Assembly (NCBI GenBank): GCA_947177165.1
Contig: CAMWTP010000009.1
Span: 32,761 to 96,760, forward strand
Origin: an uncultured Lachnospiraceae bacterium
GTDB taxonomy: Bacteria > Bacillota > Clostridia > Lachnospirales > Lachnospiraceae
Length of the DNA stretch: 64,000 nucleotides
Direction of reading: 5' to 3'
In this document: piece by piece, positions 3,916 through 52,999 of the stretch
Numbering within the stretch: position 1 is the first letter of the stretch
How the letters are laid out: every line of letters starts with the position of its first letter
The notes under the pieces: model-generated
What the model was told of the DNA's origin: nothing
The model's input: only the letters and a program-made list of their open reading frames with translations
The model's database searches: none
Program-made: the position numbers and the translations under genes

Positions 3916-4923
3916 TTATATCTGTGTGTTAATAATCGATACACCGAGTTTGTCGGGCTGTACAATATCGTTGAAGATATTTTTGCAATACGCTGAGACT
4001 GCATTTCCGAACGCGGCATTTTGACCAAATAACTCGTTGTAGGCGTTCTGGAAATCAGGGGTGGTCATATCAATACTGTCGGCATCAAATATCATTTTTT
4101 CCTGTTGGCTGTCAAAGGTAAGTCCGAGTTTTGCAAGTTTATCCTTGTGATCGAGACACAGCTGGTTAAGTTTGTCTATATTTTCACTTTCGTTCGTGCT
4201 GTCTGTGCGATAAACCAACTGGGCAAAAGATGATAGCAGTATTCCCAGATCCCGGATCGTGTCACTGTCTAACCTGCCGGACTGGACAAGCGTGTCACAT
4301 GATTTTATGGTTGATGTAGCCTGTCCTGCCAGTGTCATATAGTCCGCCAGTATCATATCCGCTTCTTCATACTTCTGGGTCTGGCTTACGCGATATTCGC
4401 TAATGTTGTACTGTGCGTCACTTGCGGTTTCATCCACTTTGCGCATGATCTTGTCTGCCTGTCCGATGAAAGAATCGTGGCCGGAGAAAAGGGCATTGAT
4501 GGTCTTGTCAGAGGCATCTGCGAAAGTTTTACTGTCAAACGAATATTTGCCGCTGACTTTCTCGACACCGATTTTTTTCAGATTCGTCTCGTTGTCAGAG
4601 AACAATTTTTCAAGCTTTGAGAGCTGTTTCTGCACATCCTTATCCGTCACTTTGTCGGAGCTGCTCTTCATATTATTATAAGATTTTATCAGATCCTCGA
4701 CCTGGCTCTCAAGCAAATCTCTTGAGATTCCGCCAGAAGAATAGCGCTTTAATTTTTTGACGCTTTTTTTGAACGCTTCCGCTTTGTCCTGGAGCTTTTC
4801 AATGTTGGCATCTGCTTCCGTTATCTTTTTGGTGATGGAGTGTGTATAGGAATAATTGTTTTGCCTGATTTGGTTGATTAGGTCTGTCGGTTTATATTGA
4901 ATGGTCATAGAAAATCCCTCCAA
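3916..4923 (-). CDS. Coiled-coil protein with two FliD-like segments; uncharacterised (start may be a few codons downstream)
   Basis: 335-aa ORF, helical/coiled-coil composition; see findings. Confidence 0.75.
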   Translation of the reverse strand: MEGFSMTIQYKPTDLINQIRQNNYSYTHSITKKITEADANIEKLQDKAEAFKKSVKKLKRYSSGGISRDLLESQVEDLIKSYNNMKSSSDKVTDKDVQKQLSKLEKLFSDNETNLKKIGVEKVSGKYSFDSKTFADASDKTINALFSGHDSFIGQADKIMRKVDETASDAQYNISEYRVSQTQKYEEADMILADYMTLAGQATSTIKSCDTLVQSGRLDSDTIRDLGILLSSFAQLVYRTDSTNESENIDKLNQLCLDHKDKLAKLGLTFDSQQEKMIFDADSIDMTTPDFQNAYNELFGQNAAFGNAVSAYCKNIFNDIVQPDKLGVSIINTQI

Positions 4924-5135: not shown

Positions 5136-6569
5136 TTGGGCGAAAATATTATCGAATTAAAGCATATCAGCCGTACTTTTGACGACGGCTTTCGTGTGGT
5201 TGACGATTTCAACCTTACAGTACAGAGAGGTGAGTTTGTCACATTTCTCGGACCCTCGGGGTGTGGAAAGACGACAACGCTGCGCATGATTGCGGGTTTT
5301 GATAAGCCGACAGAGGGCGAGCTGCTGTTAAACGGTGAGGATATTCGGGATTTGCCGCCCAATAAACGTCCTATCAATACAGTGTTTCAGAGATACGCGC
5401 TTTTTCCTCACCTGAATGTATTTGAAAATGTCGCCTTCGGGCTGAAATTAAAGAAGCTTCCGAAAGCGGAGATTGTAAAGAAGGTCAAGAAAGCGCTGGA
5501 GATGGTGGACCTTGAGGATTTTGAGGACAGGAGAATACAGACGCTCTCGGGCGGTCAGCAGCAGCGTATCGCCATCGCGCGGGCAATCGTCAATGAGCCG
5601 GAAATCCTGCTGTTGGATGAACCGCTGGGCGCACTGGACCTGAAGATGCGCAAAGAGATGCAGCTTGAGCTGAAGGGCATGCACGAGAAGCTGGGGATCA
5701 CGTTTATCTATGTGACGCACGACCAGGAGGAAGCGCTCACGATGTCTGACAAGATTGTCGTGATGTCAGAGGGAAAAATCCAGCAGATCGGCACGCCGGA
5801 GGATATCTACAACGAGCCAAAGAACGCTTTTGTCGCCGATTTTATCGGGGAGAGCAATATTTTTACTGGTATAATGACGGGGAAATACAGAGTGCGGTTC
5901 TGTGGGGCAGAGTTTGAATGCGTGGACGATGTCGAACATGGCACAATGATTGATGCGGTGGTGAGGCCGGAGGACGTGACGATCACGGCGCCGGATCAGG
6001 GAATTATCAAGGGGATTGTGACTTCCGTCATCTTTAAGGGCGTGCACTATGAGATTGCAGTGCAGTCCGGCAAGAATGAGATCGTGGTGCAGTCCACCAG
6101 AAAGACGGAGTTAAATGCCCTGGTGGGACTGTATATCGAGCCGGAAGGGATTCACATCATGCTGGCGGAGAACAGGATCAACCGCATCGAATCCGGGTTG
6201 GACAAGGACTACAGGCTTGCGTTTCTCGGGGGTATGCTTGACTGTGACCTGACTGCCCTGATACCGGGCTCCGCATTCAGCGCAGACGGCGCACTTGTGG
6301 ACGCACATGGCGATATGATTGAGCCGGACCGGATCAAGGTGATTGTGTCTGTCAATCCGGATGACATCACAATGAGTGATGACAAGGAGGCGGGGATTCT
6401 CCGGGGACACATCATCAATCTGATCTATAAGGGCGATCACTACAGCTATGTCGTGCGGACGGAGGAGGACGAGGATTTTATCGTTTCCGACGAGTATTTG
6501 TGGAACATGGATGACTACGTGAGTCTGTTGATTCCAAAGGATAAGTTTCATTATGCCATCAAGAAATAG
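5136..6569 (+). CDS. potA: Spermidine/putrescine ABC transporter ATP-binding protein (TTG start)
   Basis: Walker A GPSGCGKTT, signature LSGGQQQR, Walker B; C-terminal TOBE-type domain; followed by two permeases and a binding protein. Confidence 0.92.
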   Translation: MGENIIELKHISRTFDDGFRVVDDFNLTVQRGEFVTFLGPSGCGKTTTLRMIAGFDKPTEGELLLNGEDIRDLPPNKRPINTVFQRYALFPHLNVFENVAFGLKLKKLPKAEIVKKVKKALEMVDLEDFEDRRIQTLSGGQQQRIAIARAIVNEPEILLLDEPLGALDLKMRKEMQLELKGMHEKLGITFIYVTHDQEEALTMSDKIVVMSEGKIQQIGTPEDIYNEPKNAFVADFIGESNIFTGIMTGKYRVRFCGAEFECVDDVEHGTMIDAVVRPEDVTITAPDQGIIKGIVTSVIFKGVHYEIAVQSGKNEIVVQSTRKTELNALVGLYIEPEGIHIMLAENRINRIESGLDKDYRLAFLGGMLDCDLTALIPGSAFSADGALVDAHGDMIEPDRIKVIVSVNPDDITMSDDKEAGILRGHIINLIYKGDHYSYVVRTEEDEDFIVSDEYLWNMDDYVSLLIPKDKFHYAIKK

Positions 6570-6595
6570 CTGGCATAACTGAATGGAGGTTGCGG

Positions 6596-7399
6596 ATGAA
6601 CAAATTTCGTTTTCAGAGGTCGCAGCTGTGCATACCGTACGGTTTGTTTCTGGTATGTTTTGTGATGGCGCCTTTGATCGTGATTATATACTATGCATTT
6701 ACGAACGGGGAAGGGCAGTTTACGCTGGAAAATCTGATGGGATTTTTTTCAAGTCCCAATACGATCGGGACGCTGGCTTACAGTCTTGGCATTGCGGTGG
6801 CCACCACCTGTATCTGCCTGCTGCTGGCGTATCCGATCGCATATATACTGGCGAGAAGCAGCATGAAACACAAATCCGTGGTTCTGATGATTTTTGTTAT
6901 GCCGATGTGGATTAACTTTACGCTTAGAATCACGGCCCTCAAGGAAATCCTGACCATGATCGAGGGAAATCTCGCCTATCACCCGTTTTTGAACACGCTG
7001 GTTGGTATGACGTATGATTTCCTGCCGTTTATGATACTTCCTATCTATACAACGCTGCTGAAGCTCGACGGAAGTCTTCTGGAGGCGGCGGCAGATCTTG
7101 GAGCGGACACGGTTCAGACATTTCTGAAGGTGACACTTCCGCTGTCTGTTCCGGGGATTATCAGCGGGATTGTGATGGTGTTTCTGCCGTCCATGACCAA
7201 CTATGTCGTGCTCGATATGCTCTACAACAGCACGTATATCATGGGAAGTCTGATCGGAGCGTATTTCAGTGCCTACGACTGGCACAACGGCTCGATGATC
7301 GCGCTGATCCTGCTGGTGATCATTCTTGTGTTTACCCTGGTTACGAACCGCTATGCAGATGAGGATGCAGGCAGCAGCAGGGGAGGTGTACTCGGATGA
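6596..7399 (+). CDS. potB: Spermidine/putrescine ABC transporter permease PotB
   Basis: ATG after GGAGG; BPD_transp_1-like 'EAAADLGADTVQTFLKVTLPLSVPGI'; ATGA overlap with next gene. Confidence 0.9.
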   Translation: MNKFRFQRSQLCIPYGLFLVCFVMAPLIVIIYYAFTNGEGQFTLENLMGFFSSPNTIGTLAYSLGIAVATTCICLLLAYPIAYILARSSMKHKSVVLMIFVMPMWINFTLRITALKEILTMIEGNLAYHPFLNTLVGMTYDFLPFMILPIYTTLLKLDGSLLEAAADLGADTVQTFLKVTLPLSVPGIISGIVMVFLPSMTNYVVLDMLYNSTYIMGSLIGAYFSAYDWHNGSMIALILLVIILVFTLVTNRYADEDAGSSRGGVLG

Positions 7400-44005: not shown

Positions 44006-44164
44006 ATCATTTGCTCCTTTTTACTATACTGAACAATGTTCAATATAACATAATAATATGTTCCTGTCAAGCGGTATGAAAAAAAATCAAAATTTTCTCT
44101 TGACAGATTCTGACAAAGTGATTATGATAACTTTAAGATTTGATTTTCAAAATAAATAGCGATA

Positions 44165-44476
44165 TGAAACTGATGACCAAGAGGAGTACATATTTTGGGC
44201 GATTCACAGAGAGCTGCAGGTGGTGGGATTGCGGCAGTCAAAGAGATATGGAATGGACTTGGGAAGGTGGGAGCAAAGAGTCAAAGCGTATGATGGCGGT
44301 AAAGATGCTGTCAGGAGATTCGAGTAATGCCCAACGGGATTTCCGCCCGTTATCAAGGGAAAGCGCATGATGGTGCGTGTGTAGAGAGGGTGTATTTTTG
44401 ATATGCCAAATTAGGTGGTACCGCAGAAGTTGAGAGCTTTTGTCCTAGTAGAGATATTAGGACGAAAGCTTTTTTT
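44165..44476 (+). ncRNA. T-box leader (tRNA-Trp-responsive by context) upstream of trpDCFBA
   Basis: T-box-like TTAGGTGGTACCGCAG (44411-44426), terminator 44435-44476 (AGCTTTTGTCCTA/TAGGACGAAAGCT + T-run), stem-I-like region with TGG codons near 44249-44256; 5' limit approximate. Confidence 0.85.
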
Positions 44477-44586
44477 ATGCGCACGGGCACCAAAAGGAAG
44501 TATGTCAGCTGGAGCTGACAAGTGCCCGGCGCGCAAATGGGGGAAGACAAATCTCCCATACTCGATTGCACAGGGGGGAATAAAAA

Positions 44587-45597
44587 ATGATTGTGGAAGC
44601 AACAAAAAAGGTCGTAGAGAAGATTGATTTGACAGCTGACGAGGCAGAGCAGGTGATGGATGAGATTATGAGCGGTGGGGCGGAGCAGATTAATATGGCT
44701 TCGTTTCTCACAGCACTGCGCATGAAGGGCGAGACGGTTGAGGAGATTACCGCATTTGCGAAGGGCATGAGAAAGCATGGCACAAAAGTACCTGTACACG
44801 GAGATGTGCTTGAAATCGTGGGAACAGGCGGGGACGAGGCCGATTCCATCAATATCAGTACAACGGCAAGTATCGTTGCAGCGGCGGCGGGCTGTAAGGT
44901 TGCAAAGCACGGGAACAGAAGTGTGTCAAGCAAAAGCGGCGCAGCTGACTGTCTGGAGGCGCTTGGCATAAAGCTTGACGTGGAACCGGAGAAAAATGCA
45001 GAGGTTCTTGAGAAAGGAAATATCTGCTTTATGTTTGCACAGAAATACCACGCAGCAATGCGCTTTGTGGGTCCTGTGAGAAAAAGAATCGGACTCAGGA
45101 CAGTATTTAATATCCTTGGACCGCTCGCCAATCCGGCGGAGGCAAATGTGGAGTTGATGGGCGTGTACAGCGAGGAGCTGGTGGAGCCGTTGGCGCAGGT
45201 GCTCAGCAATCTCGGTGTGAAGCGCGCGCTGGTAGTGTATGGACAGGACAGACTTGACGAGATTTCCCTGAGTGCACCTACGACTTGCGTAGAGGTCAAC
45301 GACGGTACGTTTCAAAAGTACGAGATCACACCGGAGCAGTTCGGATTTCATCGGTGCCGGAAGAGCGATCTGACAGGCGGTGACGGCGCAGAAAACGCGA
45401 AGATTACAGAAGCGATTTTAAAGGGGGAATGTACGGACGCCAGGGCAGACGCAGTGCTTTTAAATGCAGGGGCAGGGATTTATCTGATGGGCGGTGCGCC
45501 TTCCATTGGGGAGGGTGTGAAAATGGCAAGAGAGGCGATCGAAAGCGGTAAAGCATATAAGACGCTTCAGAATTTTGTAAAGCTTACAAATTCGTAG
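44587..45597 (+). CDS. trpD: Anthranilate phosphoribosyltransferase
   Basis: 'VGTGGDEADSINISTTASIVAAAAGCKVAKHGNRSVSSKSGAADCLEALG'. Confidence 0.97.
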   Translation: MIVEATKKVVEKIDLTADEAEQVMDEIMSGGAEQINMASFLTALRMKGETVEEITAFAKGMRKHGTKVPVHGDVLEIVGTGGDEADSINISTTASIVAAAAGCKVAKHGNRSVSSKSGAADCLEALGIKLDVEPEKNAEVLEKGNICFMFAQKYHAAMRFVGPVRKRIGLRTVFNILGPLANPAEANVELMGVYSEELVEPLAQVLSNLGVKRALVVYGQDRLDEISLSAPTTCVEVNDGTFQKYEITPEQFGFHRCRKSDLTGGDGAENAKITEAILKGECTDARADAVLLNAGAGIYLMGGAPSIGEGVKMAREAIESGKAYKTLQNFVKLTNS

Positions 45598-45668: not shown

Positions 45669-46460
45669 ATGATACTTGATGATTTGGCAGCTGCCACCAG
45701 AGCCAGGATAGAGCGAAAAAAAGCGGAAGTGCCGTTTGATGAGGTGAGGAAAAAAGCGGTACAGCTTGCAAAGGAGGAGAGGACATTTACATTTCCTTTT
45801 GAGACAGCGGTTGCAAAAGGTGATATCAGTTTTATATGCGAGGTAAAAAAAGCTTCGCCTTCAAAAGGGATTATCGCGGAGGAATTTCCTTATCTGGACA
45901 TTGCAAGGGATTACGAAAAGGCAGGTGCGGACTGTATATCCGTGTTGACGGAGACAGATTATTTTAAGGGTGATGACAGGTTTTTAAGGGAAATCAATGA
46001 TAACGTTGCGATACCAACAATCAGAAAGGATTTTTTCATAGATACATACATGATCTACGAAGCAAAACTTCTGGGGGCCTCATGTGTTCTGCTGATTGCG
46101 GCACTTCTTGACACAGATATGCTCAGGGAATACAAGGCGGTCTGTGATGAACTTGGGCTTTCGGCGCTTGTGGAGGCACATGACGAGGCGGAAATTCAGA
46201 GAGCGCTCGATGCCGGAGCCAGAATGGTCGGAGTCAACAACCGGGACTTGAAAACGTTCACAGTCGATATCAATAACAGCACGAGGCTGAGAAGTCTGGT
46301 TCCCGAAGAGATACTCTTTGTCGCGGAGAGCGGCATCAGCACAGCGGAGGATATACAGGTGCTCCAGCAGGCAGGAGTAAACGGTGTGCTGATCGGGGAG
46401 ACGCTGATGCGGAGTGGCGATAAAGCGGGAATGCTTGCGCAGTTAAAGGGTGTGAGATAG
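45669..46460 (+). CDS. trpC: Indole-3-glycerol phosphate synthase
   Basis: 'FICEVKKASPSKGIIAEEFPYLDIARDYEKAGADCISVLTETDYFKGD'. Confidence 0.97.
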   Translation: MILDDLAAATRARIERKKAEVPFDEVRKKAVQLAKEERTFTFPFETAVAKGDISFICEVKKASPSKGIIAEEFPYLDIARDYEKAGADCISVLTETDYFKGDDRFLREINDNVAIPTIRKDFFIDTYMIYEAKLLGASCVLLIAALLDTDMLREYKAVCDELGLSALVEAHDEAEIQRALDAGARMVGVNNRDLKTFTVDINNSTRLRSLVPEEILFVAESGISTAEDIQVLQQAGVNGVLIGETLMRSGDKAGMLAQLKGVR

Positions 46461-47210
46461 ATGACAAAAGTGAAAATATGCGGCTTAAAGACGCTGGCAG
46501 ATGTAGAAAAGGTCAATCGGTATCTGCCGGAATACATTGGTTTCGTGTTTGCAGATACAAAACGCTTTGTCACCGATGAACAGGCGCTTCGTATGAGGAA
46601 GGCACTTGACAAGCGCATTCAGGCTGTCGGGGTGTTTATAAATGAACCGATGGAGCATATCGTTGAATTATGTGACAGAGGTGTCATCAATGCGGTGCAG
46701 CTGCACGGCGAGGAATCAGAGGATTACATTCGGGAATTAAGACAGGAAACTGACACGACTGTCATAAAAGCGGTCAAGGTGCAGAGTGTGGAGCCGGTAT
46801 TAAAACGGATGTCGCAGGAAGCAGATTATATGCTGTTTGATACTTATAAAAAAGGCGAGCCTGGTGGCACAGGAGAGCGGTTTTCACTGGATATATTAAA
46901 AGAGAGCCTGAAAAAGCTGAGAGTCTGCGGTCAGGCAATAAAGCCATATTTCCTGGCGGGAGGACTGCACTGGCAGAATGTGACGGAAGTGCTTGGCCAG
47001 ATGGAATGTAATACATTCAGAGAATGCAATATGTTTGCAGACTGCAATACATTTGCAGAACGTAATGTGTTTGCAGAATGTAATACATTAGCAGAATGTA
47101 TTGCAGTCGATGTGAGCACAGGCGTTGAGACAGACGGGATAAAGGACGAGAAGAAGATCAGACAGTTTATAGAAAATGTGCGAAATATGAATAAAGTCAG
47201 GCCGCTTTAA
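46461..47210 (+). CDS. trpF: Phosphoribosylanthranilate isomerase with repeat insertion
   Basis: 'KVKICGLKTLADVEKVNRYLPEYIGFVFA', 'AVQLHGEE', 'YFLAGGLHWQNVTEVL', 'AVDVSTGVETDGIKD'. Confidence 0.95.
   Translation: MTKVKICGLKTLADVEKVNRYLPEYIGFVFADTKRFVTDEQALRMRKALDKRIQAVGVFINEPMEHIVELCDRGVINAVQLHGEESEDYIRELRQETDTTVIKAVKVQSVEPVLKRMSQEADYMLFDTYKKGEPGGTGERFSLDILKESLKKLRVCGQAIKPYFLAGGLHWQNVTEVLGQMECNTFRECNMFADCNTFAERNVFAECNTLAECIAVDVSTGVETDGIKDEKKIRQFIENVRNMNKVRPL
47004..47099 (+). repeat. 18-bp in-frame tandem repeat within trpF (hexapeptide ECNTFA)
   Basis: Units start at 47004, 47022, 47040, 47058, 47076, with a partial unit at 47094. Confidence 0.93.
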
Positions 47211-47306
47211 GGCTGCAGATGATAGGGCAGGAGTGTGCGGCAAATAATTTGCAGTGTATGAGTGAAGAATTTGTGATTTCAATGTAAGAAAGGGAGATTT
47301 ATGAAA

Positions 47307-48497
47307 ATGGAAGAAAAGAAAGGCAGATACGGGGTATATGGCGGACAGTACATCCCGGAGACACTGATTACGGCAGTGCAGGAGTTGGAGCAGGAGTACG
47401 AAAAATACAAGAATGATCCTGCATTTCAGGCGGAGTTAAAGGTTCTGATGGAGAAGTATGCAGGGCGTCCCTCACTTTTGTACTATGCGGAGAAAATGAC
47501 AAAGGATTTGGGCGGAGCAAAAATCTATTTAAAAAGGGAAGATTTGAATCACACAGGTTCCCACAAGATCAATAACGTATTAGGTCAGGTACTCTTGGCG
47601 AAGAAGATGGGCAAGAAACGCGTCATTGCGGAGACCGGTGCGGGACAGCACGGCGTGGCGACAGCCACAGCAGCAGCTCTGATGGGGCTGGAATGTGAGA
47701 TTTTCATGGGAAAAGAGGACACGGACAGACAGGTGTTAAACTGTTATCGAATGGAGCTTTTGGGTGCGAAAGTGCACCCGGTAACGTCGGGAACCATGAC
47801 CTTGAAGGACGCTGTCAACGAGACCATGCGCGAATGGGCTTCCCGAATGGATGATACCTTATATGTGCTTGGCTCGGTTATGGGGCCGCATCCTTTTCCG
47901 ATGATTGTCAGGGATTTTCAGAAAGTGATCAGTGAGGAAATCAAGGAACAGCTTATGGAGGCGGAGGGAAAGCTGCCCGATGCTGTGATTGCCTGCGTGG
48001 GCGGGGGAAGCAATGCGATGGGTTCCTTCTATGAGTTTATCCCGGACACAAGTGTGAGATTAATCGGCTGCGAGGCGGCGGGACTTGGCGTCGATAATCC
48101 CAAGAACGCAGCGACCGTCGCAAATGGAAGCGTCGGTATTTTCCACGGTATGAAGTCCCTGTTCTGTCAGGATGAATATGGGCAGATCGCGCCTGTCTAT
48201 TCGATATCAGCAGGGTTGGATTACCCGGGTATCGGACCGGAGCACGCAAACCTGAACGAGACAGGGCGCGCGCAGTATGTGCCAGTCACGGACGAGGAGG
48301 CTGTGGAGGCTTTTGAATATCTGTCAAGGACAGAAGGCATTATCCCGGCGATTGAGAGTGCGCACGCGGTTGCGTACGCAAAAAAGATTGCGCCGGAATT
48401 TGGCAAGGATCAGGTGATTGTAGTGACGATTTCCGGGCGCGGCGATAAGGACGTGGCGGCAATCGCGCGGTATAGAGGTGTGGAGATTTTTGATTAA
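47307..48497 (+). CDS. trpB: Tryptophan synthase beta subunit (ORF begins 47301; ATG at 47301 or 47307)
   Basis: '[52 protein letters not shown]'. Confidence 0.97.
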
Positions 48498-48498
48498 A

Positions 48499-48584
48499 AA
48501 ACGAAAAGTAATTCTAAGTCAGCAAAAAACGCTGACCAAGAATTACTAAATTTCGTTTAAAAGAACGCCAAGGTCAGGCGTTCT
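48499..48584 (+). promoter_or_regulatory. Two consecutive hairpins in the trpB-trpA intergenic region
   Basis: AAACGAAA-AGTAATTCT-GTCAGC paired with GCTGAC-AGAATTACT-TTTCGTTT (48499-48558); AGAACGCC/GGCGTTCT (48562-48584). Confidence 0.65.
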
Positions 48585-48643
48585 TTGTGGAGGTCAAAAC
48601 GAAAAGTAAATCTAAGTTTCATTTAAAAGAAGGAGAGATTAAA

Positions 48644-49420
48644 ATGAGCAGAATCAGCAAAGCATTTGAGAATCAGAAAGCGTTTATCGCATTTGTGACA
48701 GGGGGAGATCCGGATTTGGAGACGACGGAGGCTTTGATACCGCAGATGGCAGCGGCGGGGGCAGATTTGATCGAGATCGGGATTCCATTTTCGGACCCGA
48801 TTGCGGAGGGCGCTGTTATTCAGGCGGCAGATGAGCGGGCGCTCAGGGCAGGGACGACGACTGACAAACTGTTTGACATGGTGAAGCGTGTACGCCAGAA
48901 GGTCGACGTACCGCTGGTATTCATGACCTATATCAATCCGGTGTATACCTATGGAACGGAGAAGTTTGTAAAAAAGTGTGCCGAGTGCGGCATTGACGGA
49001 ATGATTATTCCAGATGTTCCGTTTGAGGAAAAAGAGGAAGTGAGCGGTGCCTGCGAGGCGGCAGGAATCGAGCTGATTTCCATGATTGCGCCGACATCAC
49101 ACGACCGTATCAACATGATTGCGAGTCAGGCAAAAGGATTCCTCTACTGCGTGTCATCTCTTGGCGTCACAGGTGTCAGAGGCAGTATTACGACAAATAT
49201 TAAGGAGATGGTAGACCAGGTGAAAGAAGTGTCAGACATACCGTGTGCGATTGGGTTTGGTATCGCCACGCCGGAGCAGGCGAAGGAGATGGCAGCAGTG
49301 TCAGACGGAGCGATTGTGGGCAGTGCGATTGTCAGGATTATCGCCCAGTATGGGAAGAACTGCATTGGACCAGTATGTGATTATATAAAGGATATGAAGG
49401 CCGCTGTGGCGGCTGCGTAG
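48644..49420 (+). CDS. trpA: Tryptophan synthase alpha subunit
   Basis: 'FIAFVTGGDPDLETTEALIPQMAAAGADLIEIGIPFSDPIAEGAVIQAADERAL'. Confidence 0.97.
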   Translation: MSRISKAFENQKAFIAFVTGGDPDLETTEALIPQMAAAGADLIEIGIPFSDPIAEGAVIQAADERALRAGTTTDKLFDMVKRVRQKVDVPLVFMTYINPVYTYGTEKFVKKCAECGIDGMIIPDVPFEEKEEVSGACEAAGIELISMIAPTSHDRINMIASQAKGFLYCVSSLGVTGVRGSITTNIKEMVDQVKEVSDIPCAIGFGIATPEQAKEMAAVSDGAIVGSAIVRIIAQYGKNCIGPVCDYIKDMKAAVAAA

Positions 49421-50384: not shown

Positions 50385-51683
50385 TTAACTCATTCCCACA
50401 ACCTTATCCAATAGCTTTGCGGAATCTCGCTTAGCCTCCCTTGTGGCGTGTGCATAGACATTCATGGTTGTGCTTACGTCCGAATGCCCTAAAAGCTCCT
50501 GCACGTCTTTTGGTTGCGCCCCATTTGATAACAGGTTCGTCGTGTAAGTATGCCTTAATGTGTGGAAGTGGAAACCCTCTAACTCCGGTACTTTCCTTGC
50601 CGCTGTCCGGCAGGCTGTTTCTACGGTGGCAGGAAGTTCAAGACAGCCATCTTCCCTCAGACATACAAAGGAGACTTCCGTATAATCCTCCGGCGCATCT
50701 TCTGTCATTGGCAGGTTGTAATACTCATAATGCACCCTGTTCTTCTCTGTGACTTCCCTGTAGAAATTCCTGTGGTAGAGTCCGCCATACTGCATACGGT
50801 TTTTAAGCTGTTGTTTTCTTGCTTCCTTCAAAATGTCAGCGAGGGCGTTTCCAAAATCAACTGTACGCACTTTTTTCCTCTTGGTCGAGCCGATTTCGTG
50901 CTTATGGGTAGCGCCGTTGTAACGGACACTCCTGCGGACTGTCAGATATTGTTCCTCAAGGTTGATGTCCTGCCAAGTCAGACCTGTCACTTCCCCAAGC
51001 CTAAGTCCTGTAAAATAGGCTATCTGTACAGGCAGGATTGCGTCTTTGCTGCGTTTTCCAAGCTGTGAAATCAGTTTTTGATACTGTTCATACGAAATAG
51101 GCTTGACCTTGCCTGTTTCAGTGTCCGTTTCCTCTGCAAACAAGTCCATATCGTCCTTTTTGTGCCTCATTACCACATACTGCATGGGATTGAATGTGAT
51201 GTACTGTTTCGGGAACACCGCAAAGCGGAAGGACTGCTGCAATACTGCGGAATAAGACCGTATATAGTCAATGGAATATCCCTTTGAAACAAAGTCCTCA
51301 ACCGTTCCGCCGAATGAGAGCAAATCCATGAACTGCTGTAAATGCCCCGAAGTAACCGTTTTTAGCTTTCGTCTGCTTACAGGGTGCTGTTTAATGCGGT
51401 TGATTGCCTGTAAATAAGTACCGACAGTGCCATTGCTCAATATGCCTGTCTTTAATTCTTCCTCCGCCCATGTGTCAAGCAACTGTCCGAGGGTGATATT
51501 GTCCGCCTTTGCAATGAATTTCTTGCTTTCATAGTCCTCCATTGCCTGCCTTAACAGCTTTTCCGTTTCGCTTTTGCTTTCTGTTCCTGCACATTCTTTC
51601 TGTACCAAGTTACCGCTTGCATCCTCCACATAGAAGCGGTAGTACCATTTTTTACCTTTCTGCCGTACTGATCCTTTTGCCAT
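50385..51683 (-). CDS. Tyrosine recombinase/integrase (ORF open to 51728)
   Basis: Catalytic motifs 'TGLRLGEVTGLTWQDI', 'HTLRHTYTTNLLSNGAQPKDVQELLGHSDVSTTMNVYAHA'. Confidence 0.95.
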   Translation of the reverse strand: MAKGSVRQKGKKWYYRFYVEDASGNLVQKECAGTESKSETEKLLRQAMEDYESKKFIAKADNITLGQLLDTWAEEELKTGILSNGTVGTYLQAINRIKQHPVSRRKLKTVTSGHLQQFMDLLSFGGTVEDFVSKGYSIDYIRSYSAVLQQSFRFAVFPKQYITFNPMQYVVMRHKKDDMDLFAEETDTETGKVKPISYEQYQKLISQLGKRSKDAILPVQIAYFTGLRLGEVTGLTWQDINLEEQYLTVRRSVRYNGATHKHEIGSTKRKKVRTVDFGNALADILKEARKQQLKNRMQYGGLYHRNFYREVTEKNRVHYEYYNLPMTEDAPEDYTEVSFVCLREDGCLELPATVETACRTAARKVPELEGFHFHTLRHTYTTNLLSNGAQPKDVQELLGHSDVSTTMNVYAHATREAKRDSAKLLDKVVGMS

Positions 51684-51800
51684 AATCGTTTCTCCTTTCA
51701 ATGAACGCATTTCTGCGTATGTAATCATTGAACAGATATGGCAGTCGAAACTGATGGAATGCTTTCTGAAAATAAGGATAGCATAAAATCTGCTGTCCCG

Positions 51801-52827: not shown

Positions 52828-52847
52828 AGGGCAGACAAGCAGTTACA

Positions 52848-52999
52848 GTGAACTTAAAAAATACAATCACTTTTGAAAAGTGAACTCAAAAAATGCAGTC
52901 ACTTTTGAAGAATGAACTTAAAAAGTAAGTTCACTGAAAAGACTGTGGGATATGTTCCGCAAAAAAATGAACTTAAAAAGTGCAATCACTTTGAACAAA
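52848..52999 (+). repeat. Four iteron-like imperfect 31-32-bp repeats
   Basis: GTGAACTTAAAAAATACAATCACTTTTGAAAA-type units at 52848, 52880, 52912 and 52968. Confidence 0.85.

Follow-up and report, generated by a model that had tools for sequence, protein, structure and literature searches.

In-frame tandem repeats in trpF of a Lachnospiraceae clade match the antisense of the adjacent strand-8 codons

The trpF gene of an uncultured Lachnospiraceae bacterium carries an in-frame array of 18-bp units directly before the codons of barrel strand 8, and the core of these units matches the reverse complement of those same codons. We consider it probable (roughly 0.7) that the array arose in the ancestor of a six-species clade as an inverted copy of the strand-8 codons made by template switching, and was then expanded by 18-bp slippage in a tolerant loop. 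The array was found in a window of 64,000 nucleotides (contig CAMWTP010000009.1, positions 32,761 to 96,760), in whose numbering coordinates are given here.

The gene (46461..47210, plus strand) encodes an array-bearing phosphoribosylanthranilate isomerase of 249 aa. It matches the Pfam PRAI profile (PF00697, E = 5.7e-40) and falls below the NCBIfam equivalog cut-offs (153 vs 215 bits). In Foldseek the top PDB matches are structures of PRAI enzymes, with TM by target reaching 0.85, and a profile search found this single TrpF in the genome. The operon, on the plus strand throughout, has the order trpD-trpC-trpF-trpB-trpA behind a T-box leader (44164..44450; Rfam RF00230). Profile matches identify trpD (44587..45597), trpC (45669..46460) and trpB (47301..48497); the start of trpA (48644..49420) is inferred, a longer GTG-started ORF beginning at 48587. 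The trpB/trpA gap (48493-48592) is palindromic and has 12 matches in the genome (74-100% identity), making it a dispersed palindromic element. Downstream of trpA lies a tyrosine recombinase gene (Phage_integrase; 50385-51728, minus strand), and a 32-bp repeat of ~2.5 copies at 52847-52935 lies outside any open frame.

The five units, each a 15-nt core with a 3-nt spacer, occupy 47004..47093 on the plus strand and translate as ECNTFR ECNMFA DCNTFA ERNVFA ECNTLA. They stand between helix 7 (NVTEVLGQM) and strand 8 (ECIAVDVS). An initial annotation had described an in-frame 18-bp minisatellite in TrpF, inserted just before the strand that carries the conserved motif. Both statements hold, as the array is in frame and directly precedes the DVSTGVE strand, and TRF recovers it at 47004-47100 (period 18, 5.4 copies, 74% matches, score 103; score 129 when taken as a 36-bp period). 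The same annotation gave five units plus a partial one in a 32-residue loop. The five units stand, and the insert is corrected to 30 residues, five units of six, since the last two letters (‘EC’) are ancestral, with relatives reading ...T-E-C-F-A-V-D-V-S. Across the six species the spacer is the most variable part of the unit (AGA, GCA, TCT, ACA, GGA, TTT, AAA). Against a background of 464 kb of the same genome (400 kb of genome stretches plus the 64-kb window), this is the top-scoring short-period (<30 bp) array. Judged from ORF sequences, it is also the only one among the arrays listed that sits in a core metabolic enzyme, the remaining coding arrays on the list being confined to coiled coils, low-complexity stretches, linkers or tails. 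Ordinary sequence at the trpA start gives a weak match of two copies.

Among 38 genomes of the genus, 31 gave a TrpF match, and 29 complete ORFs were read out. Units occur at precisely this position in six Lachnospiraceae species that form one clade (SH-aLRT 96), with five units in the present genome, three each in G028, G004 and G025, two in G020 and one in G029. The repeat is absent from the other 23 complete TrpFs, although in three of these the loop is lengthened by five unrelated residues. The present trpF and that of G028 are 98.0% identical in DNA, yet have five and three units; those of G025 and G020 are 98.9% identical, yet have three and two. The latter two proteins are identical outside the array, all seven differences being synonymous. 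Since both sister pairs are near-identical in the flanks and unequal in units, the array changes faster than its flanks. Copy number thus varies between close genomes with the frame kept, as in a coding VNTR or minisatellite, and the variation anticipated by the initial annotation is borne out between species, each represented by one genome. An assembly artefact was also considered; divergence among the units and their presence in six separate assemblies speak against one.

The native strand-8 codons, GAATGTATTGCAGTC (ECIAV; 47094..47108, plus strand), are the proposed source, and their reverse complement, GACTGCAATACATTC, translates as DCNTF, the unit core, a relation that the initial annotation does not mention. 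The core GAMTGYAATRYATTY matches these codons in reverse complement at 15/15 positions, and the core of unit 3 (47040..47053, plus strand) is a perfect complement (14/14) of 47095-47108. All 17 units of the six species were scored on both strands against all 15-mers of the loci around them, leaving out the array itself (5,362-7,256 nearby 15-mers per unit). The antisense native site ranked first alone for 14 units and shared first rank for one, so that 15 of 17 units are best or equally best described as the reverse complement of this nearby segment. A better place existed for two, the diverged unit 4 of the present array and the second unit of G025. In G029 the antisense native site was the best of 7,040 15-mers for the single unit present, a match that tandem copying cannot have multiplied because G029 has one unit only. 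The antisense match exceeded the direct match in 15/17 units (mean 12.1 vs 10.1 of 15). Unit 2 of G025 has its closest fit to the native site when read directly, and over its 18 nt it agrees with the sister species’ array at 15/18 positions in reverse complement and 13/18 directly. As a putative flipped unit, this exception fits template switching.

These scores are to be read with two properties of the units in mind. Because the core is close to a palindrome, few positions distinguish a direct from an antisense origin, and the 17 units are not independent because they are related by descent. Self-complementarity of the native site is 10-12/15 in the array-bearing species vs 6/15 in the nearest array-free relative. 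Only in G004 is the native codon GCT in place of GCA, and only there does a unit contain the paired AGC (GAC AGC). When native sites were swapped between species, 0.04-0.10 of permutations paired units and sites at least as well as the true pairing, a marginal result. Inverted spacer pairs are present (AGA/TCT, AAA/TTT).

Folding was compared with synonymous-codon versions of the array and native site that encode the identical peptide. Hairpin energy z values were -3.4 for the present genome, -3.2, -4.2, -5.1 and -2.5 for four others and -1.1 for the one-unit species G029, where the excess is not significant. In four or five of the six species, hairpin formation therefore goes beyond what the peptide itself demands. 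The mean z of 32 control windows from the operon was -0.4, with one at -3.9, and dinucleotide shuffles gave z values of -3.7 and -4.5 for the DNA strands and -5.0 for RNA. Elsewhere in the family, those TrpFs with split profile matches that were read out have inserts at other places. Two from other Lachnospiraceae genera are in-frame tandem repeats, one of 33-bp units between strands 4 and 5 (G167, L107) and one of 15-bp DEKLx units after strand 5 (G123, L109); neither insert showed a hairpin excess.

We propose that the array had a single origin in the ancestor of the six-species clade. A template switch during replication would have placed the reverse complement of the strand-8 codons (GAATGYATTGCAGTC) beside the codons themselves, leaving a 3-nt hairpin loop. 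Core and loop would together make 18 nt, a multiple of three, and so keep the frame. Slippage by 18 bp would then have added and removed units, while further template switches between the inverted arms may have re-copied or flipped some of them. The array would persist because the unit length is a multiple of three and because a disordered chain is tolerated in the alpha7-beta8 loop, across the barrel from the active site. The data themselves give the array's position and frame, the differences in copy number, the antisense match, the excess of hairpins, one flipped unit and a predicted barrel. We infer the replication mechanism, the order of events and a near-neutral effect on the enzyme; the sequences compared include no intermediate of the first event.

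Ordinary minisatellite slippage is the most serious competitor, and we regard it as rather unlikely. Here a direct duplication of GAATGT..TTTGCA with 6 nt of filler would have been expanded later, and the inverted symmetry would be a by-product of the near-palindromic core. The 18-bp tandem structure is what slippage produces, and the unit flanks GAATG..GCA do resemble the native GAATGTATTGCA in direct orientation. The preference of 15 units for the antisense native site nonetheless counts against direct duplication, and in simulation a direct copy with the observed matches rarely looked this antisense (P <0.01 in 14/17 units). Ordinary slippage also sits poorly with one flipped unit, and G029 comes close to a state that direct duplication does not predict, a clearly antisense first unit beside a unit-free state.

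Maintenance by selection is improbable, whether it acted through the protein (its stability, or the binding of a partner or a metal) or through an mRNA hairpin that paces translation before trpB. It would explain why the frame is kept in 6/6 species, why N and F codons recur in 16/17 units and why the RNA fold is strong (z -5.0). However, length is not fixed (one to five units), the sixth residue varies (R/A/S/T/G/F/K), Cys is lost in 4/17 units, the array is predicted to be disordered, and related species lack it altogether. Least probable, and already largely refuted, is that a dispersed palindromic element of the RPE or PARCEL kind was inserted into trpF. A palindromic core inside a coding gene recalls both, but such an element should have copies at several loci, whereas the present genome holds no second locus of the unit at <=2 mismatches, and the two-unit pattern occurs in 3/38 genomes of the genus, every time in trpF, and in 0/396 family genomes outside it. 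Database matches elsewhere are few and consist of unrelated short arrays or of single loci: a loose two-unit pattern had 20 matches in genome collections, and those outside the genus all fell at unrelated loci. Two of these are short 18-bp arrays, in Nitrospira (L072) and in Clostridiales (L077). That of the Nitrospira MAG (reverse strand, ~4323-4420) has a near-palindromic core and 3-nt spacers and lies inside a 1812-residue open frame; in another frame it reads THSVNV/THSLNA. Viral contigs gave two matches, both unrelated.

The initial annotation suggested that the barrel enzyme could withstand the insert, and for the fold structure prediction agrees. With 28 sequences from the genus as input, AlphaFold predicts a confident TrpF barrel (mean pLDDT 84.4) in which residues 183-209, between helix 7 and strand 8, have pLDDT <50; the array is thus predicted to be disordered and the barrel kept. 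Array-free G017 has an identical order of barrel elements in its predicted model. C7 and D127 are invariant in the 28 sequences and, in alignment to 1lbm, correspond to the catalytic residues of the T. maritima enzyme, Cys7 and Asp126. Loops that lead into a strand of a (beta/alpha)8 barrel sit on the side turned from the active site, and the models place the array in the alpha7-beta8 loop, where the enzyme can probably tolerate the added length. Metal or redox binding by the loop, a further suggestion of that annotation, is disfavoured because the repeat Cys is not conserved: it is replaced in 4/17 units (R, R, S, Y), and the sole unit of G029 has none.

The same operon has a second peculiarity. 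In this assembly trpE and trpG are absent, and across 44450-44587 the T-box leader is followed directly by trpD. In the sister G028 the same leader precedes trpE, and in G029, G020, G004 and G017 both trpE and trpG separate the leader from trpD. A profile search of the present genome found no PF04715 or PF00425 match and no TrpE-like protein elsewhere. The gap is either a real deletion or an assembly join. The present trpF differs from that of G028 by seven nonsynonymous and six synonymous changes, and since trpE and trpG are absent its product may be under weaker constraint. The other five array-bearing species have TrpE, so the array is not a consequence of trpE/trpG loss.

The closest parallel in an enzyme is VNTR4155 in leuA (alpha-isopropylmalate synthase) of Mycobacterium tuberculosis. 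Its 57-bp unit varies from 2 to 21 copies between strains, and the 2- and 14-copy enzymes are both active with differing properties (PMC2704214). Both are in-frame, variable-copy tandem repeats in enzymes of amino-acid biosynthesis, the leuA segment disordered in a structure and the trpF array in prediction. Unlike the trpF array, VNTR4155 lies in a C-terminal domain outside the barrel, and it is not reported to be of antisense origin (PMC2704214). Template switching between inverted repeats leaves arm homogenisation and spacer inversion as marks (PMC8604942; PMC8794818), and in yeast coding genes these alter protein sequence (PMC8604942). The inverted spacer pairs of the trpF array are of this kind. 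The yeast events are substitutions, whereas in the bacterial trpF an antisense copy would have been inserted and then multiplied in tandem. Nematomorph mitochondrial genes likewise hold inverted repeats inside translated conserved genes, with template switching proposed, but as long single palindromes without tandem units rather than tandem 15-nt cores (PMC6649704). PARCEL shares with the trpF array a tandem, palindromic, translated repeat of variable copy number, but has a 25-residue unit, transfer between taxa and ORFs without assigned function (PMC2996958); the trpF array has six residues, one locus and a local origin. A literature search found no earlier report of repeats in trpF and, within its partial coverage, none in which the unit of a tandem repeat in a protein was copied in antisense from adjacent codons.

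On balance we favour the view that these genes record a bacterial route to new protein sequence, in which an antisense self-copy made by template switching grows through slippage into an expanding in-frame array in a core enzyme. Read in antisense, the codons for ECIAV in the adjacent strand give nearly the peptide ECN(T/A)F, and the natural series of 0, 1, 2, 3 and 5 units suggests how an insert in a protein can originate and lengthen. The path from a template-switch error to a tandem protein repeat would be traceable and testable here, in a gene with a simple complementation assay. The array also carries a warning that fast amino-acid change in such repeats need not mean adaptation.
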